Part shown: piece after piece, positions 3,013 to 14,631 of the stretch
Layout: every line of letters begins with the position of its first letter
How positions within the stretch are numbered: the first letter of the stretch is position 1
NCBI GenBank assembly: GCA_002929135.1
Contig: PESC01000038.1
Span: forward strand, 28,016 to 92,015
Direction of reading: 5' to 3'
Length of the DNA: 64,000 nucleotides
DNA from: Methylomonas sp.
Lineage (GTDB): Bacteria > Pseudomonadota > Gammaproteobacteria > Methylococcales > Methylomonadaceae
Position numbers and translations under genes: made by a program
The notes under the pieces: model-generated
The model's input: the letters and a program-made list of their open reading frames with translations, nothing else
What the model was told of the DNA's origin: nothing
Database searches by the model: none

Positions 3013-4950
3013 ATGTCGGAACACCACATCTACCCGGTCAAACCGCACATCGCACAAACAGCGCACATCGACGCCGCAAGTTACCAAACGCTCTATCGGC
3101 TATCGATAGAAAACCCCGAAACCTTCTGGGCCGGGCAGGCGAACGATTTTCTCGACTGGCAGCAACCCTGGCAAACCGTCATGCAATGTGATTTTGCCCA
3201 TGGTGACATCCGCTGGTTTCAAGGCGGCAAACTCAATGTGACCTACAACTGCCTGGATCGCCATCTAGCTACACGCGGCGATCAGACGGCCATCCTCTGG
3301 GAAGGTGACGATCCCCTGCATGACCGCCGCATCAGCTACCGCGAACTGCATCGTCAAGTTTGCCAGTTCGCCAATGTATTACGCTCGCACGGCGTCGAAA
3401 AAGGCGACCGCATCTGCATCTACCTGCCGATGATCCTGGAAGCGGCGGTGGTGATTCTGGCCTGCGCCCGCATCGGCGCCGTGCACTCCATCGTATTTGG
3501 CGGCTTTTCGGCCGACGCCTTGCGCGACCGCATCCTCGATGCCGATTGCCGCCTGCTCATTTGTGCCGGTCACGGAAAGCGAGGCGGCAAGACCGTGCCC
3601 AGCAAACTCAACGCCGACAAGGCCGCAGCGCAATGCCCGAACCTGCAAACCGTCATCGTCATCCGCGACCCGGACGAAGCGCTGCCCTGGGCCAAAGACC
3701 GCGATGTTTGTTACCAAACCGCAATGCAAAGCGCATCGGAACACTGCCCGCCGGTGTGGATGGATGCCGAAGATCCGCTGTTCATCCTCTACACCTCAGG
3801 CTCCACCGGCAAACCCAAAGGCCTGCTGCACACCACCGGCGGCTATCTGCTGTACGCCGCAATGACCCACAAATACATTTTTGATTATCACGACGGCGAC
3901 ATCTACTGGTGCACCGCCGACATCGGCTGGATCACCGGCCATTCCTACGTACTGTACGGCCCGCTGTGCAACGGCGCCACCACGCTGATGTTCGAAGGTG
4001 TACCGACGTATCCTGCCGCCGACCGCTTCTGGCAAATCGTCGACAAGCACCAGATCAACATCTTTTACACCGCACCCACAGCCATACGCGCACTGATGGC
4101 GCAAGGTGACGATTTCGTCAACCGCACCGATCGCAGCAGCCTGCGCATCCTCGGCAGCGTCGGCGAACCGATCAACCCGGAGGCCTGGGAATGGTATTAC
4201 CGCGTCGTTGGCGACAAGCGCTGCCCCATCGTCGACACCTGGTGGCAAACCGAAACCGGCGGCATTTTGATTACCCCGCTACCCGGCGCCACCGCACTGA
4301 AGCCCGGCTCGGCCAGCCTGCCGTTTTTCGGCATCCAGCCGGCCATCGTCGATAACGACGGCCACATCCTCGACGGCGAAGCCGAAGGCGTACTGGTATT
4401 CCCCCACTCCTGGCCTGGCCAGGCACGCACCATCTACGGCGACCACGCGCGATTCCTCGACACCTATTTCAGAAAATTCCCCGGCTTTTACTTCGCCGGT
4501 GACGGCGCCCGCCGCGATGCCGATGGCTATTACTGGATCACAGGCCGCGTCGACGATGTCATCAACGTCTCCGGCCACCGCCTGGGCACCGCCGAAATCG
4601 AAAGCGCCCTGGTGTTACACCACGATGTCGCCGAGGCCGCCGTCGTCGGTTGCCCCCATGCCATCAAAGGCCAGGGCATCTACGCCTACGTCACGCTGAA
4701 TATCGGCGTCACGCCGTCCGACGATTTGAAAAAAGCCCTGCGCGAGCTGATTCGGGAAGAAATAGGCCCTATCGCCCTGCCCGACCACATCCAATGGGCG
4801 CCAGGATTACCCAAAACCCGTTCCGGCAAAATCATGCGCCGCATCCTGCGCAAAATCGCCGCCAACGACGTAGCCGACCTCGGCGACACCTCGACGCTGG
4901 CCGACCCCAGCGTCGTCGCCGATTTGCTGGCGCAACGCGCCCATCAGTAA
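3013..4950 (+). CDS. acs: acetyl-CoA synthetase
   Basis: 645 aa; [20 protein letters not shown]-terminal [11 protein letters not shown] acetylatable Lys motif. Confidence 0.93.
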
Positions 4951-6406: not shown

Positions 6407-6985
6407 CTATTTCAACCATTCCGCCATGGCAATCACGTTTCTGGCCATGTCGCCCAACGATACCTTGCGATCCATCGCCAATTTGCGCAGGGCGTGATAG
6501 GCCTCGTCTTCACTGTAGCCCTTCGATTGGATCAGCAGCGCCTTGGCACGGTCGATGTATTTGCGGTCTTCCAACTGGGTTTTGGCTTTTTTCAGTTCGT
6601 CGAGCAAGTGTTGCTGCTCCTTGAAGCGGGCGATGGCGACTTCGACGATGGTCTTGATTCGCCTCGGCTCCAGCCCATCGACGATGTAAGCGCTGACGCC
6701 CGCCCGGATGACCTCGTTGATGGTGCCGGTTTGCTGGTCTTCGGCAAACATCACCACCGGTAGCGAATGCTGCTGGTTGATGGTGCGGATCATCTTCAAC
6801 ACCGTGTCATTCGGCGAATACAAATTCAATATCACGACATCCGGGCGCAGGTGGGCTATCACCTCGCCGAGGTTCAACTTCTGTAGTTTCAGCGTTGCCA
6901 CCTCATAACCCTGTTGGCGTAAACAGGTTTCCAGTACCCGGTCGGTGTCCAGTTCATCGATGACCAGCACATTCAGCGTTGCCAT
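6407..6985 (-). CDS. nasT: ANTAR-domain response regulator, NasT-like
   Basis: Receiver-like N-terminus and C-terminal ANTAR (DRAKALLIQSKGYSEDEAYHALRKLAMDRKVSLGDMARNVI); next to nitrate transporter. Confidence 0.88.
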   Translation of the reverse strand: MATLNVLVIDELDTDRVLETCLRQQGYEVATLKLQKLNLGEVIAHLRPDVVILNLYSPNDTVLKMIRTINQQHSLPVVMFAEDQQTGTINEVIRAGVSAYIVDGLEPRRIKTIVEVAIARFKEQQHLLDELKKAKTQLEDRKYIDRAKALLIQSKGYSEDEAYHALRKLAMDRKVSLGDMARNVIAMAEWLK

Positions 6986-6987
6986 GG

Positions 6988-8454
6988 TCAGTCCAGTTCG
7001 ATTTTGACCGAGCTGCCGTCCGGCATGATTTCGGTGATGAAATTTCTCGGCTCATCCAGCCAATACACCAGCGCCAGCAAGACGAGGCAGCAGAGGGCCA
7101 GCATCAGGAAAAAGCGGCTGGGGTCGAGCAAGGTGAATGCGATCAGAAACACGATGGCTCCGGCGTTGCCATAAGCGCCGACGATACCGGCCACCTCGCC
7201 GGTGATGGCCTTGCGCACCAGCGGCACGAAGGCAAATATGGCGCCTTCGGCGGCCTGCATGAAGATCGAGCAAATCAGCGTGACCAATACCGTCAGCGTC
7301 AGCGACCACTGCGGGGAAATCATCGCCATCAACCCATAACCGATGGCAAGGCCGCCACTGAACAGGGCCAGCGAGCGTCGGCGACCGATGCGATCACTGA
7401 ACCAGCCGCCAGCGGGGCGGGCAACGATGTTGGTGATGACGAAGCTCGATGCCAGCATCCCGGCATTCAGCATCGACAGACCCTGGCTATCGTTGAAAGT
7501 ATTGAAAAAAAACAGCGGCAACATCGACAACACCGCCAGTTTTGAACCGAAAGTAATGCAGTAGGCCACGGCCAGAATGAAGACCTGGCGGTAGCGGTAC
7601 TGCTGAATGCCAGGGATGGGTTGACTCAGGCGCTCGCTGTTGCTGGTGACAAGCCGATAGGCATGGACGAAAAACACGTTCCAGATCAGTGCATGCAGTG
7701 TCAATGCCCAAGCGGGCGACAGCATGGGATTCAGTGATGACAACGTCCAGGTCAGCAACGACAGGCTGGCATACAGCGGCACCAGGCTGAGCATGTACAG
7801 AAATAGGTCGTGTATGCTGCTGACCTCCATGGTTGCAGCCTGCTTGCTTTTGAGGCCAGCCCGTCCGGGCGGAAAATCTTCGACATGTCGGTAATACACC
7901 GCCGCATAAAACAGCGCCAGCAGACCGGTCAGCGCCACCGCATGACGCCAGCCACCGAAATACAGCGCTACGGCAGGCAGCAGCAAGGCGGCGACGGCTG
8001 AACCGAAGTTGCCCCAGCCAGCGTAGACACCTTCGGCAGTACCTATCTGATGCGATGGGAACCAGTCACCGATGATGCGCACCCCTACCACGAAGCCGGC
8101 GCCGATGAAGCCCAGTAAAAAGCGCGACCAGGCCAGCGTGGCGAAATCGTCGGCCAGTGCGAACAGAAAACACGGCAGGCTGCATACCGCCAGCAACACG
8201 CTGTAACTGATGCGGGCGCCGAAACGGTCGACCACCAGGCCGATGATGACCCGTGCCGGAATGGTCAACGCCACGTTCAGCAGTAAAAGTGTTTCGACCT
8301 GAGCGTTGCTGATGCCGAGTTCCTGCTGAATCAATACCAACAATGGCGCCTGATTGAACCAGACCAGGAAACTGATGAAAAACGCGATCCAGGTCAGGTG
8401 CAGGATTTTGTACTTGCCTTTCAGACCAAAGACTTCAAACGGCGAAAACGACAT
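6988..8454 (-). CDS. MFS nitrate/nitrite transporter (NarK/NasA type)
   Basis: 488 aa, multiple TMs, FVVGVRIIGDWFP and NIVARPAGGWFSDRIGRR; the ORF track start at 8673 reads through a repeat, so ATG at 8454 (MSFSPFEVFGLKGKYK) is preferred. Confidence 0.88.
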   Translation of the reverse strand: MSFSPFEVFGLKGKYKILHLTWIAFFISFLVWFNQAPLLVLIQQELGISNAQVETLLLLNVALTIPARVIIGLVVDRFGARISYSVLLAVCSLPCFLFALADDFATLAWSRFLLGFIGAGFVVGVRIIGDWFPSHQIGTAEGVYAGWGNFGSAVAALLLPAVALYFGGWRHAVALTGLLALFYAAVYYRHVEDFPPGRAGLKSKQAATMEVSSIHDLFLYMLSLVPLYASLSLLTWTLSSLNPMLSPAWALTLHALIWNVFFVHAYRLVTSNSERLSQPIPGIQQYRYRQVFILAVAYCITFGSKLAVLSMLPLFFFNTFNDSQGLSMLNAGMLASSFVITNIVARPAGGWFSDRIGRRRSLALFSGGLAIGYGLMAMISPQWSLTLTVLVTLICSIFMQAAEGAIFAFVPLVRKAITGEVAGIVGAYGNAGAIVFLIAFTLLDPSRFFLMLALCCLVLLALVYWLDEPRNFITEIMPDGSSVKIELD

Positions 8455-8558
8455 GGACTGACTCGGAAGTTGACGGAATCGGTTGTCGTCAAGCAAGTGA
8501 CATGCCAGGGAAACGAGGGAGTAGCCCGCTCGGGGATGACGATTTATCACCTCGCCCC

Positions 8559-8650
8559 CCTCGTTCCCACGCTCTGCGTGGGAACGCATACGGACGCTGT
8601 ATGAAGGTAAGTCTGTGTAGAAAGGCCGGTATGGGTTGCCACGGAGATAG
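8559..8650 (+). repeat. Dispersed paired-palindrome repeat copy
   Basis: CTCGTTCCCACGCTCTGCGTGGGAACGCATACGG...GTATGAAGG...AAAGGCCGGTATGGGTTGCCACGGAGATAGTGG. Confidence 0.75.
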
Positions 8651-8875
8651 TGGAAATCGAATGGCTGCGCCACCAGGCGTTCGGCTTGGTGCAGCCCACA
8701 GACTCATCGCACCTGAATGGTGCGACTTTGCCCGCAAGGGTGTCGCCAATTTTGCAACACGCCGTGCGCGATAACCCGGTCGATGCCGAGGCCACCCCCC
8801 CTGTGTTTTCTGCAAGCCTTGCAGAGCTTGATTTTCACCATGTCCGCCACGCTGGCGTGTGGAAAACAAAAAAGC

Positions 8876-8891
8876 TGGCATCACATTTGCT
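8876..8891 (+). promoter_or_regulatory. Candidate sigma54 (-24/-12) promoter upstream of nirB
   Basis: TGGCATCACATTTGCT: GG-N10-GC spacing with TGGCA and TTGCT boxes. Confidence 0.7.
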
Positions 8892-8948
8892 TTAACCATT
8901 GCGAGTCTCTTGCCGAGGCTCCCTTGCATTGTTGTTGTTTCGGACAAA

Positions 8949-8999
8949 GGCGTCCTGATTGAACGAGCGTAGCTCGTTAATTCAGGATGCCTTTTTTTT
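8949..8999 (+). terminator. Leader rho-independent terminator upstream of nirB (candidate NasT antitermination target)
   Basis: GGCGTCCTGATTGAACGAGC-GTA-GCTCGTTAATTCAGGATGCC followed by a T8 tract. Confidence 0.85.
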
Positions 9000-9062
9000 A
9001 CCCCTGAAACACGGCACGGCTTCGGCAAACCTAACGATCGCAACGCATTAGAGGTAAATGTC

Positions 9063-11609
9063 ATGACGCGAAAACAAACACTGGTGGTCATCGGCAACGG
9101 CATGGTCGGTCAGCACTTCATAGCCAGTTTGATGGAGAGCACCGCCAGGGATCACTTCGACGTAGTCACGTTCTGCGAAGAATCCCGGCCCGCCTACGAC
9201 CGCGTGCACCTGTCGGCGTATTTCACCGGCAAGACGGCCCAGGATTTATCGCTGGTGCCCGACGGTTTCTTCGAAAGCCACGGCATCACCCTTCATCTGG
9301 GCGACAAAGCGGTCGAGATCGACCGTGTTGCCAAACGAGTAACATCGGCCAACGGTATCGTTGTCGATTACGACAAACTGGTGCTGGCGACCGGTTCTTA
9401 CCCTTTCGTGCCGCCGGTGCCGGGCCATGACAGGCCGCATTGCCTGGTGTACCGCACCCTGGATGATCTCGATGCCATCCGGGCATCGGCACAGGCTTCC
9501 CGCATCGGTGCCGTCGTCGGCGGTGGCCTACTGGGACTGGAAGCCGCCAAGGCCTTGCGTGATCTGGGTCTGGAAACCCACGTCGTCGAATTCGCACCGC
9601 GTCTGATGACCGTGCAACTGGATGACGGTGGCGGTGCCATGCTGAAACGCAAGATCGAGGCTCTGGGCGTCAAAGCGCATCTCAACAAGAACACCTCATT
9701 GATAGACGACGGCGCAAGCGCCCGTCATCGCATGAATTTCGCCGACGGCGAACACCTGGAAACCGATTTGATCCTGTTCTCGGCCGGCATTCGTCCGCGC
9801 GACGACATCGCCAGGGCCTCGGGCCTCGATGTCGGCCCGCGCGGTGGCATTGTCATCGACAACCACTGCCGCACCTCCGATGCCGATATTTATGCCATAG
9901 GCGAATGCGCCTTGTGGAACGGCCAGATATTCGGCCTGGTAGCGCCCGGTTACACCATGGCGCGCTGCGTGGTAGCGCATTTGTCAGATCAGGAACACGC
10001 CTTCACCGGCGCCGACATGAGCACCAAACTCAAGCTGATGGGCGTCGATGTCGCCAGCATAGGCGACGCCCAGGCCAGAGCGCCCGGCGCCCTGATTTAC
10101 ACCTATCAGGATGGTCGCGCCGAGGTTTACAAACGCCTGGTGGTCAGTGCCGACAACCAACGCCTGCTCGGTGCCGTGCTGGTCGGTGATGCCGCCGACT
10201 ACGGCACGCTGCTGCAATACTGCCTGAACGGCATCGAGCTACCCGAACAGCCCGAAGCCCTGATTCTGCCCGCCACGTCCGAGTCCGATCAACCAATCGG
10301 CCTGGGGGCGGATGCCCTGCCCGCATCGGCGACGGTATGCTCGTGTTATTCCGTATCCAAAGGCGACATCTGCGCCGCCATCGCCGACGGCTGCAACACG
10401 GTGCCCGCGCTGAAAACCACCACCAAGGCCGGCACCGGCTGCGGCGGTTGCGCCGCCCTGGTGAAATCGGTGCTGGACTGCGAACTGAAAAAAGCCGGGG
10501 TCGAGGTCAACAACGATTTGTGCGAACACTTCCCCCATACCCGGCAAGACCTGTTCAACCTGATTCGCATCGACGGCATCAAAACCTTCGATGCGCTGAT
10601 CGAAAAACACGGTCGCGGCCTGGGTTGCGATGTCTGTAAACAGGCGGTGGGTTCGATGCTGGCCTCGCAGTGGAACGACTACATCCTGGAAACAGCGCAC
10701 ATCGGCCTGCAAGACACCAACGACACCTTTCTGGCCAATATGCAGAAAGACGGCAGTTATTCCGTCGTGCCCAGAGTGCCGGGCGGCGAGATCACGCCTG
10801 ACGGCCTGATCGCCATCGGCCAGGTAGCCAAGAAATACGGGCTGTACACCAAGATCACCGGTGGCCAGCGCGTCGACCTGTTCGGTGCCCGCGTCGAGCA
10901 ATTGCCCGCCATCTGGGGTGAATTGATAGCCGCCGGCTTCGAATCCGGCCACGCCTACGGCAAGGCGCTGCGCACCGTCAAATCCTGCGTTGGCAGCACC
11001 TGGTGCCGTTATGGTGTCGATGACAGCGTGGGCTTGGCGATCGAACTGGAAAACCGTTACAAGGGCCTGCGGGCACCGCACAAAATCAAGTTTGCCGTCT
11101 CGGGCTGCACCCGTGAATGCGCCGAGGCGCAGGGCAAGGACATTGGCGTCATCGCCACCGAAGGCGGCTGGAATCTGTACGTCTGCGGCAACGGCGGCAT
11201 GAAACCGCGCCACGCCGACCTGTTTGCCACCAGCCTCGACAAGGCTACGCTGATCCGTTACATCGACCGTGTGCTGATGTTCTACATCCGCACCGCCGAC
11301 CGGCTGCAACGCACCTCGGTGTGGATGGACAACCTCGAAGGCGGCCTGGCCTACCTGAAAGCCGTGGTCATTGCCGACAAACTGGGTATGGCCGATGAAC
11401 TGGAGCGACAAATGGCACATGTCGTCGATACCTATCAGTGCGAATGGAAAACCACGCTGGAGGACGACAACAAACTCAAACGCTTCCGCCATTTCGTCAA
11501 CAGCGACCAGCCCGACGACCATATCGTGTTCGTCGAGGAACGCGGCCAGATTCGTCCGGCCAGCCCGCAGGAGCGCAAGCATTTTCGCCTGATCGAGGAG
11601 GTTGCATGA
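9063..11609 (+). CDS. nirB: assimilatory nitrite reductase [NAD(P)H] large subunit
   Basis: 848 aa; FAD/NAD-binding N-terminus, BFD-like [2Fe-2S] region (CSCYSVSKGDIC...TGCGGC), siroheme/4Fe-4S motif (GCTRECAEAQGKD). Confidence 0.93.
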   Translation: MTRKQTLVVIGNGMVGQHFIASLMESTARDHFDVVTFCEESRPAYDRVHLSAYFTGKTAQDLSLVPDGFFESHGITLHLGDKAVEIDRVAKRVTSANGIVVDYDKLVLATGSYPFVPPVPGHDRPHCLVYRTLDDLDAIRASAQASRIGAVVGGGLLGLEAAKALRDLGLETHVVEFAPRLMTVQLDDGGGAMLKRKIEALGVKAHLNKNTSLIDDGASARHRMNFADGEHLETDLILFSAGIRPRDDIARASGLDVGPRGGIVIDNHCRTSDADIYAIGECALWNGQIFGLVAPGYTMARCVVAHLSDQEHAFTGADMSTKLKLMGVDVASIGDAQARAPGALIYTYQDGRAEVYKRLVVSADNQRLLGAVLVGDAADYGTLLQYCLNGIELPEQPEALILPATSESDQPIGLGADALPASATVCSCYSVSKGDICAAIADGCNTVPALKTTTKAGTGCGGCAALVKSVLDCELKKAGVEVNNDLCEHFPHTRQDLFNLIRIDGIKTFDALIEKHGRGLGCDVCKQAVGSMLASQWNDYILETAHIGLQDTNDTFLANMQKDGSYSVVPRVPGGEITPDGLIAIGQVAKKYGLYTKITGGQRVDLFGARVEQLPAIWGELIAAGFESGHAYGKALRTVKSCVGSTWCRYGVDDSVGLAIELENRYKGLRAPHKIKFAVSGCTRECAEAQGKDIGVIATEGGWNLYVCGNGGMKPRHADLFATSLDKATLIRYIDRVLMFYIRTADRLQRTSVWMDNLEGGLAYLKAVVIADKLGMADELERQMAHVVDTYQCEWKTTLEDDNKLKRFRHFVNSDQPDDHIVFVEERGQIRPASPQERKHFRLIEEVA

Positions 11610-11974
11610 ACCGCTGGATCGATGTCTGCGGGGTGGACGATCTACAGCCCGACTCCGGCGTCTGTGCGCAGGTTGCAGGCCATCAGGTAGCGATGTTCCA
11701 TCTGCCCAAACTGGATGCGGTGTACTCGCTCGACAACTTCGATCCGATCGCTCAAGCCAATGTCCTGTCGCGCGGCATGGTCGGCGACCTGGGCGGCGAA
11801 CCCATGGTGGCATCGCCCATGTACAAGCAGCATTACAATCTGAAGACCGGTGTCTGTTTCGAAGATGCCAGCGTCAGACTGACGACGTATCGGCTGCGTA
11901 TCGCCGATCACCGTGTCTGGCTACAGGTCGATGAACACGGTGTGCCAGTCGCAATGCCGATTGCCACGCCATGA
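11606..11974 (+). CDS. nirD: nitrite reductase small subunit (Rieske-like)
   Basis: MNRWIDVCGVDDLQPDSGVCAQVAGHQVAMF..., overlaps nirB by 4 nt. Confidence 0.9.
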   Translation: MNRWIDVCGVDDLQPDSGVCAQVAGHQVAMFHLPKLDAVYSLDNFDPIAQANVLSRGMVGDLGGEPMVASPMYKQHYNLKTGVCFEDASVRLTTYRLRIADHRVWLQVDEHGVPVAMPIATP

Positions 11975-14631
11975 AGACGATCAAAACCACCTGCCCGTAT
12001 TGCGGTGTCGGCTGCGGCATAGCAGCCCGCGTCGATGCCGCATCGCGGCAGGTGACGGTGCAAGGCGATCAAAACCACCCGGCCAATTTCGGCAGACTGT
12101 GCTCCAAAGGCCTGGCGCTGGCCGAAACATTGGCGCTGGACACCCGCTTGTTGCGGCCACAGATTGGCGACCGGGTGGTCAACTGGGGAGCGGCGCTGGA
12201 TCATGTGGCGGACGGTTTCCGCCGCATCATTGCCGAACACGGGCCGGATGCCGTCGCGCTGTACGCTTCCGGCCAATTGCTGACCGAGGATTATTACGTT
12301 GCCAACAAGCTGATGAAAGGCTTTATCGGCAGCGCCAATATCGACACCAACAGCCGCTTGTGCATGTCGTCGTCGGTTGCCGGGCACAAGCGGGCATTCG
12401 GTGCCGACACCGTGCCCGGTTGTTACGAGGATTTGGAACTGACCGACATGATCGTGTTGATCGGCTCCAACGCCGCCTGGTGTCACCCTGTGAGTTTTCA
12501 GCGCATCCGCGCCGCGAAAAAGCTGAGGCCGGACATGAAAATCGTCGTCATCGATCCGCGCCGTACCAGCAGTTGCGACATTGCCGACCTGCATCTGCCG
12601 CTGGCACCCGGTAGTGACGTGCTGTTGTTCAACGGCCTGCTGCGCGACTTACAGCAACGGCAGCGGCTGGATGCCGAATACATCCAACACCATACCAACG
12701 GCTTTGCCTCGGCCATGGCCGAGGCCGACAGCGCGACGCCTGAGCGGGTTGCCGAAGGCTGCGGCCTGCCACTGGCCGATGTGACCACGTTCTACCGCTG
12801 GTTTGGCGAGCACAACAAGGTGATGAGTCTGTACAGCCAAGGCGTCAATCAATCGACCTCGGGCACCGATAAAGTCAACAGCATCATCAATTGTCACCTG
12901 GCCACAGGCCGCATCGGCAAGCCTGGCAGGGGGCCGTTCTCGCTGACCGGCCAACCCAATGCCATGGGCGGGCGTGAAGTCGGTGGCCTGGCGCACCAAC
13001 TGGCGGCGCACATGGACTTCACCAACCCGAACGATGTCGAGCGCGTCGCCCGCTTCTGGGGCAGCGAGCGCATCGCCCGTCAGCCCGGTTATCCGGCGGT
13101 GGCGCTGTTCGATGCCATACACCAGGGCAAGGTCAAGGCGGTGTGGATCATGGGTACCAATCCGGTCGTCAGCTTGCCGGATGCCGACAAGGTCAGGCAG
13201 GCACTGGCGCGTTGTGAGTTGGTCGTCGTCTCCGATTGTGTGGCGCGTACCGATACCAGCGCATGGGCGCATGTGCTGTTGCCCGCCGCAGGTTGGGGCG
13301 AAAAAGACGGCACGGTGACCAATTCCGAACGACGGATTTCCCGGCAGCGGGCCTTGCTGCCGTTCGCCGGTGACGCCAAGCCGGATTGGTGGATCATCAG
13401 CCAGGTAGCCCACCGCCTGGGCTACGGAGCAGCCTTCGATTATCAAACGCCTGCCGATATTTTTCGTGAGCACGCCGCCTTGTCGGGCTTCGAAAACGAT
13501 GCCGAACACGGTGTACGCGATTTCGACATTTCCGGCTTGGCGAACCTGGATGATGTGGCTTACGCCGAGTTGCAGCCCGTGCAATGGCCGGTGAACCCGG
13601 CATTTCCCGAGGGCCGTGCCCGGCTGTTCGACGATGGCCGCTTTTTCACCGCCTCGGGCAGAGCGCAATTCGTCGCGGCGACACCCAAACCACCGGCGCA
13701 TCCGGTCGATGCCGATTACCCGCTGGTGCTGAATACCGGCCGGGTGCGCGACCAATGGCACACGATGACCCGTACCGCCATCGCCGCCAAGCTCAACCAG
13801 CATCGGCCCGAGGTGTACGTCGATGTGCATCCGGTCGATGCCGAACGTCATCGCCTGAGTGATGGCGGCCTGGCCCGACTGGACAGTATGCGCGGCCACC
13901 TGCTGGCACGGGTACGCGTCACCGACGACCAAGCCCCCGGCAGCGTGTTTGTGCCCATGCACTGGACTGCGCAGTTTGCCAGTCAGGGCCGGGTGGGCGT
14001 GTTGATCGGTGACAGCGTTGATCCCATTTCCAAACAACCGGAAAGCAAGCACACACCGGTGAAAATCGCCGCGTTCGATACCGCCTGGCAGGGTTTTGTG
14101 ATGGCGCGACAGCCATTCGATGTCGAGGGGATCGACTACTGGAACCGGATACACGGCGACGAATATCAGCACTACGAACTGGCGGCGACGCAGGCGCTGG
14201 GCGACGTATCGCACTGGCTGCGCAGCAGGCTGCCGATGCAGGTGCATGATGAGTGGCTGGCTTGTTTCGACGCAGGCAGCGGGGCTTATCGCGCCGCGCA
14301 AATCGTCGATGACCGTCTCGAAGCCGTGGTCATGATGGCTTGCAGTGGCACGTTGCCGGATCGGCAATGGCTGGCTTCGCTGTTTGCCAAGCATGCACTG
14401 GATGCCACCGACCGTCTGGGCTTGCTGAGCGCCTGCCCGGTCAATGGTCAGGCGACCGACGGCGCGACCGTTTGCGCCTGTTTCGGCATCGGCGAGCGAA
14501 CGATTTGCCGCGCCATCGATGACCACGACCTGAAAACGACACAGGATGTGGGTCAGTGCCTGAAAGCCGGCACCGGATGCGGCTCCTGCGTACCGGAAAT
14601 CAGCAAGCTGCTGGCGCTGGCCAGCGCCTGA
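11971..14631 (+). CDS. nasA: assimilatory nitrate reductase catalytic subunit
   Basis: N-terminal CPYCGVGCGI 4Fe-4S motif, molybdopterin oxidoreductase body, C-terminal BFD-like [2Fe-2S] domain; ATGA overlap with nirD. Confidence 0.93.
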   Translation: MKTIKTTCPYCGVGCGIAARVDAASRQVTVQGDQNHPANFGRLCSKGLALAETLALDTRLLRPQIGDRVVNWGAALDHVADGFRRIIAEHGPDAVALYASGQLLTEDYYVANKLMKGFIGSANIDTNSRLCMSSSVAGHKRAFGADTVPGCYEDLELTDMIVLIGSNAAWCHPVSFQRIRAAKKLRPDMKIVVIDPRRTSSCDIADLHLPLAPGSDVLLFNGLLRDLQQRQRLDAEYIQHHTNGFASAMAEADSATPERVAEGCGLPLADVTTFYRWFGEHNKVMSLYSQGVNQSTSGTDKVNSIINCHLATGRIGKPGRGPFSLTGQPNAMGGREVGGLAHQLAAHMDFTNPNDVERVARFWGSERIARQPGYPAVALFDAIHQGKVKAVWIMGTNPVVSLPDADKVRQALARCELVVVSDCVARTDTSAWAHVLLPAAGWGEKDGTVTNSERRISRQRALLPFAGDAKPDWWIISQVAHRLGYGAAFDYQTPADIFREHAALSGFENDAEHGVRDFDISGLANLDDVAYAELQPVQWPVNPAFPEGRARLFDDGRFFTASGRAQFVAATPKPPAHPVDADYPLVLNTGRVRDQWHTMTRTAIAAKLNQHRPEVYVDVHPVDAERHRLSDGGLARLDSMRGHLLARVRVTDDQAPGSVFVPMHWTAQFASQGRVGVLIGDSVDPISKQPESKHTPVKIAAFDTAWQGFVMARQPFDVEGIDYWNRIHGDEYQHYELAATQALGDVSHWLRSRLPMQVHDEWLACFDAGSGAYRAAQIVDDRLEAVVMMACSGTLPDRQWLASLFAKHALDATDRLGLLSACPVNGQATDGATVCACFGIGERTICRAIDDHDLKTTQDVGQCLKAGTGCGSCVPEISKLLALASA

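Follow-up and report, generated by a model that had tools for sequence, protein, structure and literature searches.

How does RNA polymerase reach the nirB-nirD-nasA operon of this Methylomonas when a strong terminator stands between promoter and first gene? A preliminary description had predicted a sigma54-driven leader terminator controlled by the antiterminator NasT. We analysed the whole stretch of 64,000 nucleotides around the operon (the window), which lies within a host assembly of 2.57 Mb in 63 contigs (95.9% complete); the closest named relatives carrying the same nasT belong to Methylomonas and Methylobacter, order Methylococcales. We consider it very probable, from sequence comparison and folding, that NasT acts as antiterminator on the nirB leader, that sigma54 and probably NtrC control its transcription, and that the leader is a variant of a known system, with P2 as its only canonical hexaloop hairpin.

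The operon runs nirB, nirD, nasA on the + strand (Table 1), with nirB starting at 9063 as first described; the Rieske domain of NirD (PF13806) covers residues 59-163 of the open reading frame 11438-11974. The divergent gene already proposed as nasT, at 6407-6985(-), does encode receiver and ANTAR domains. Its upstream neighbour, overlooked at first, is a narK-like gene (6988-8454(-); TIGR00886, 304.8 bits, slightly below the cut-off of 311.7); the narK-nasT pair is kept in relatives and is divergent from the nirB operon in the window. The nirB-narK intergenic region also holds a palindrome, CTCGTTCCCACGCTCTGCGTGGGAACG (8557-8587), which looks like an interspersed REP-type repeat, and a similar one lies near nrtA in locus L088 of the host genome.

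Table 1 Features of the nirB leader and its surroundings, in window coordinates.
Feature	Position	Strand	Details
nasT, predicted antiterminator	6407..6985	-	receiver PF00072 and ANTAR PF03861
narK-like MFS nitrate/nitrite transporter	6988..8454	-	directly upstream of nasT
NtrC-like palindrome GCACC-N5-GGTGC	8709..8723	+	possible enhancer
sigma54 (-24/-12) promoter TGGCATCACATTTGCT	8876..8891	+	GG-N10-GC; predicted +1 near 8902
5' hairpin GAGUCUC-UUGCC-GAGGCUC	8903..8921	+	at the place of P1; not an A1/G4 hexaloop
P2 antiterminator hairpin GGAC-AAAGGC-GUCC	8942..8955	+	hexaloop 8946-8951, A1 and G4
Intrinsic terminator hairpin	8946..8994	+	mutually exclusive with P2; 13-bp outer stem and inner hairpin
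T8 tract	8992..8999	+	predicted termination site
nirB, nitrite reductase large subunit	9063..11609	+	TIGR02374
nirD, Rieske protein	11612..11974	+	Rieske domain start to stop; exact start codon unsettled
nasA, assimilatory nitrate reductase	11971..14631	+	C-terminal BFD-like [2Fe-2S] domain

Promoter, P2 hairpin and terminator of the nirB leader

The sigma54 promoter proposed at 8876-8891 is an exact GG-N10-GC element whose position is kept in 40/40 related nirB leaders, each with a sigma54-type site 56-72 nt upstream of the P2 motif. The pattern TGGCAY-N5-TTGCW occurs twice in the window (0.35 expected), the host genome encodes RpoN, and no sigma70-like promoter was seen in 8400-9100. The NtrC-like palindrome at 8709-8723 is the sole exact match to GCACC-N5-GGTGC in the window (0.15 expected) and is a weak candidate for an enhancer; a strict-pattern search found no conserved NtrC site in relatives. 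On the other strand, a second sigma54-like site, TGGCATGTCACTTGCT at 8492-8507(-), lies 38 nt before the narK ATG and suggests a sigma54 start for narK-nasT that would have no leader terminator; conserved placement of this site was not found in relatives.

The preliminary description could identify no canonical ANTAR hexaloop target, but one is present: GGACAAAGGCGTCC at 8942-8955 folds as P2, with a six-base loop, A1, G4 and a closing C:G, and agrees with the published ANTAR target rule (A1/G4 hexaloop; Ramesh 2012, PMC3369931; Stewart and van Tilbeurgh 2012, PMC3369936; NasR SELEX, PMC7496416), the closing pair included. Since P2 is canonical, part of the paired-hexaloop target does exist. 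The strong terminator was correctly recognised, with its T8 tract at 8992-8999, but its hairpin begins at 8946, so that the start first given (8949) is 3 nt late. The terminator's 5' arm opens with ten bases that are also the loop and 3' strand of P2. For the leader 8902-9000, the predicted folding energy is -43.2 kcal/mol (z -6.2; as low in 0/200 shuffles). When the RNA is cut at 8958, P2 is present in the predicted fold; in the full leader the terminator is preferred and forcing P2 costs 14.6 kcal/mol. As modelled, this fold pattern is the expected design, with termination by default and readthrough if a protein holds P2.

The arrangement is conserved. Among nirB leaders drawn from the genus and named relatives, the order sigma54-type site, P2, T-tract terminator holds in 40/40 (34 distinct). 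Thirty of these were aligned, and the P2 stem is invariant in 30/30; this invariance means that it yields no covariation, which counts as a weakness of the antitermination reading. The outer stem of the terminator is 92.8% paired across relatives, and its inner stem shows little covariation on the alignment used. The GGACAAAGGYGTCC pattern is rare, occurring in 33/37 genomes of the genus, usually once and before nirB; because the four motif-less genomes also lack nirB, the co-occurrence of motif and NasT is not independent evidence. Matches to GGACAAAGGCGTCC away from nirB in two genomes (G013, G014) have neither promoter nor T tract and were set aside. A further genome, G024, has three nirB copies (L055, L086, L087), each with its own leader of sigma54 site, P2 hairpin and terminator.

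When the host genome was searched with a model combining P2 and terminator, two sites were credible, one before nirB and the other also before a nitrate gene, nrtA; of the two remaining matches listed, one is the nirB site on the complementary strand and the other has E 0.77. The strong stem and T tract would also suit a simple terminator or insulator that separates nirB from the intergenic repeat region, with constant readthrough and no regulator. We regard this as highly improbable because the stem contains an invariant A1/G4 hexaloop, its spacing from the sigma54 site is fixed, and a second such leader, with covarying hexaloop hairpins, stands before nrtA.

The prediction of a sigma54-driven leader terminator under NasT control thus draws support from the canonical P2 within the terminator arm, from an order of promoter, P2 and terminator like that of related nirB leaders and of Pseudomonas P11/NalA, and from NasT, whose ANTAR domain is the only one found in the host genome. 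On this reading, sigma54 polymerase, for which NtrC is the probable activator when nitrogen is limiting, would start near 8902, and P2 could form first on the emerging RNA. If active NasT is absent, the longer terminator hairpin, built from the same bases, would displace P2, and transcription would stop at about 8992-8999 to give an RNA of about 98 nt. With nitrate or nitrite present, NasT would bind the P2 hexaloop and keep P2 closed, so that polymerase would continue into nirBD-nasA. We infer that P2 alone would suffice for this.

The terminated RNA of about 98 nt might itself be an sRNA that works in trans, perhaps through binding to NasT. Pseudomonas P11 is named as an sRNA with reported roles of its own (PMC12080996), and EutX is a known example of an sRNA that sequesters an ANTAR protein. 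A location immediately ahead of nirB and a P2 lying within the terminator arm are instead what a cis leader would show, and a role in trans would add to cis control and not replace it; as an alternative we give it little chance.

The missing P1 hexaloop and the hairpin in its place

The P1 hexaloop is essential in the published eutP and nasF leaders, and its absence here speaks against NasT antitermination: no A1/G4 hexaloop was found shortly before P2 in the window leader. In this respect the early suspicion of a variant leader was right, P1 not being canonical. Searching for A1/G4 hexaloops with a stem of at least 4 within 60 nt upstream of P2 gave 2/32 nirB leaders, which is chance level (shuffles 4%); with stems of at least 3, the predicted nirB transcripts yielded only one, an AU/GU-only stem in L085. 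Where P1 would stand, most nirB leaders have a hairpin whose loop is 5 or 7 bases long. In the window this is the weak hairpin GAGTCTC-TTGCC-GAGGCTC, located at 8903-8921 as previously noted and separated from P2 by a spacer of about 20 nt.

Comparative support for the 5' hairpin, counted on the window's own fold, is modest: it pairs better than every slid control and than 496/500 shuffles. RNAalifold on a MAFFT alignment did not recover it because the two loop types, of unequal length, misalign. The hairpin might be a true altered P1, with NasT reading its 5- or 7-base loop and the target comprising two hairpins after all. Its occurrence at the 5' end of most nirB leaders and its pairing agree with such a role, as does a CUC...GAG stem that many nirB leaders have in common with the P1 of nrtA. 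We nevertheless find this rather doubtful: the loop lacks A at position 1 and is 5-7 bases long, the spacer of about 20 nt compares with 5-12 in eut leaders, where 14 is already harmful (yet 2-25 is accepted in actinobacteria), the hairpin is absent from four leaders (L033, L034, L054, L084), and the number of pair types shows no above-chance covariation.

The AAGUCUC strand of this hairpin is better conserved than its partner strand. One explanation would make AAGUCU(C) an anti-P2 segment that pairs with GGAC and closes off the antiterminator until NasT acts. RNAalifold does pair GUCU with GGAC in 27-29 of 30 leaders, and AAGUCUC is kept in L033 and L034, where the local hairpin is lost. However, the pairing consists of just four pairs, one of them U-G, shows no covariation and is absent from the single-sequence minimum-energy fold of the window leader; we therefore judge it improbable.

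Other genera of the family indicate how the P2-only leader may have arisen. The nirB leaders L198 and L227, from another genus, keep all three hexaloops, and L193-L195, from a third genus, lack the first two, so loss on the Methylomonas side is the simplest reading: the nirB leader of the Methylomonas lineage would have lost its canonical first hexaloop and kept P2.

The nrtABC leader, NasT and its probable nitrate signal

The second leader of the host genome, before nrtABC (L088 ~3080-3250, G000:C7), consists of a sigma54 site, three tandem hexaloop hairpins (ACUCC-AUCGCA-GGAGU, UUGCUC-AGCGUU-GAGCAA and AGAC-AAAGGC-GUCU) and a terminator. The search applied to nirB places an A1/G4 hexaloop before P2 in 24/28 nrtA leaders, and in 28/28 once position 1 may also be G (shuffles 4-8%). 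The first hexaloop hairpin covaries across relatives, and the three-hairpin structure is better paired than every slid control and any of 500 shuffles. Across host and genus (L088, L132-L155), the nrtABC leader shares with that of nirB the sigma54 site, a terminator-overlapping AAAGGC P2 loop and the same NasT, but has two additional hexaloop hairpins upstream of P2. The affinity of NasR for P2 alone is about 12-fold lower than for P1P2, so that nirB may demand a larger amount of active NasT than nrtABC does.

On the protein side, the phospho-acceptor position of NasT is Asn in 37/37 clade sequences, which makes control by phosphorylation unlikely. In Paracoccus, NasT is held in a NasS-NasT complex that nitrate takes apart (PMC3795266). 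We defined NasS as an NrtA-like nitrate sensor without a signal peptide, usually beside nasT, and inspected nasT neighbours in part of the genus. A PF13379 search found no NasS in the 95.9% complete host assembly, which counts against the antitermination reading because it leaves the nitrate input of these methane oxidisers unexplained. The strong match there is NrtA, whose start resembles a signal peptide and which is followed by NrtB, and one weak second match is present; G018 and G023 also have an extra, weaker match. In G221 and G054 the search does detect NasS-like genes next to nasT (named by position and length). Matches beside nasT in G003, G021 and G032 that had been considered as NasS turned out to be NrtA.

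Tentatively, one NasS-free NasT may serve both the single-hexaloop nirB leader and the triple-hexaloop nrtABC leader, with its signal coming from another partner such as NarK or NrtA; we hold this as possible, somewhat short of an even chance. If true, loop number would set the amount of active NasT needed per operon, with transport first and reduction later.

Leaders of similar type precede other genes. In four genomes (L189-L192; G008, G014, G015, G016), a sigma54-like site and a P2-like hairpin/terminator leader stand before a gene for a 334-aa 6-phosphogluconate dehydrogenase, with GGAC-AAUGGC-GUCC in three, a loop ACUGGC in L192 and no P1; the enzyme may supply reductant for nitrate assimilation. 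In other genera, NasT-type leaders precede a gene for a chemoreceptor (L202) and one for a NIT-domain protein (L197), which hints that NasT regulons may include genes for nitrate chemotaxis.

Comparison with known leaders

The preliminary description had suggested a search for ANTAR-responsive leader motifs. At Rfam's own gathering thresholds nothing matched in the window, and a relaxed search of the short stretch gave sub-threshold, full-length alignments to P11 (RF00625; 20 bits, cut-off 70) and narK RNA (RF03032; 19.6 bits, cut-off 43.2). Relatives' leaders reached at best 30 bits against P11. Such scores, far under the gathering scores, weigh against the reading given here. MicroRNA matches in the relaxed search were dismissed as chance stem resemblance.

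The nearest known system is that of Pseudomonas. P11 is reported to regulate the nirB-nirD operon (PMC12080996), NalA is reported as the sigma54/NtrC-driven, NasT-antiterminated nirBD leader (PMC12830290), and antitermination of NalA/P11 by NasT is credited to Romeo 2012 and Nie 2024 (via PMC3795266, PMC12830290 and PMC12080996). From two of these reports and the Rfam model we read P11 and NalA as one leader. It shares with the window leader a sigma54 promoter, a GGAC-AAAGGC-GUCC P2, an overlapping terminator, nirB downstream and NasT in the genome. P11 differs in having a P1 hexaloop, CCCG-AUAGAA-CGGG, just before P2, and the low Rfam score and the failure to find NasS in the window's genome set the two apart further. 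By eye, P1 is also present in 8/9 P11-like leaders of other gammaproteobacterial genomes, for example GGCC-AAAGCC-GGCC in L077.

More distant systems share parts of the design. The narK RNA has a sigma54-like element followed by an AAAG hexaloop hairpin, although the window leader falls far below its gathering score. The Klebsiella nasF/NasR and Enterococcus eut/EutV leaders likewise set an A1/G4 hexaloop hairpin in competition with a terminator (PMC3369936, PMC3369931, PMC7496416), but they have two hexaloops joined by a short linker, unlike the P2-only nirB leader. NasR detects nitrate itself with its NIT domain, and EutV undergoes phosphorylation; the host NasT has neither a NIT domain nor an acceptor Asp.

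The system itself is therefore known from Pseudomonas, and what is modestly new is the combination of a P2-only nirB leader, a triple-hexaloop nrtA leader and a NasT without detectable NasS. Published ANTAR models differ on whether the protein takes up two hexaloops at once or one at a time: in Ramesh 2012 (PMC3369931) the ANTAR dimer holds two simultaneously, and in Walshe 2022 (PMC8934654) hexaloops are contacted singly and one is the minimal binding target, although each hexaloop of a pair must be contacted to block termination. A P2-only leader bears on both models, and Methylomonas offers a natural comparison, with one canonical hexaloop before nirB and three before nrtABC, apparently read by the same NasT.
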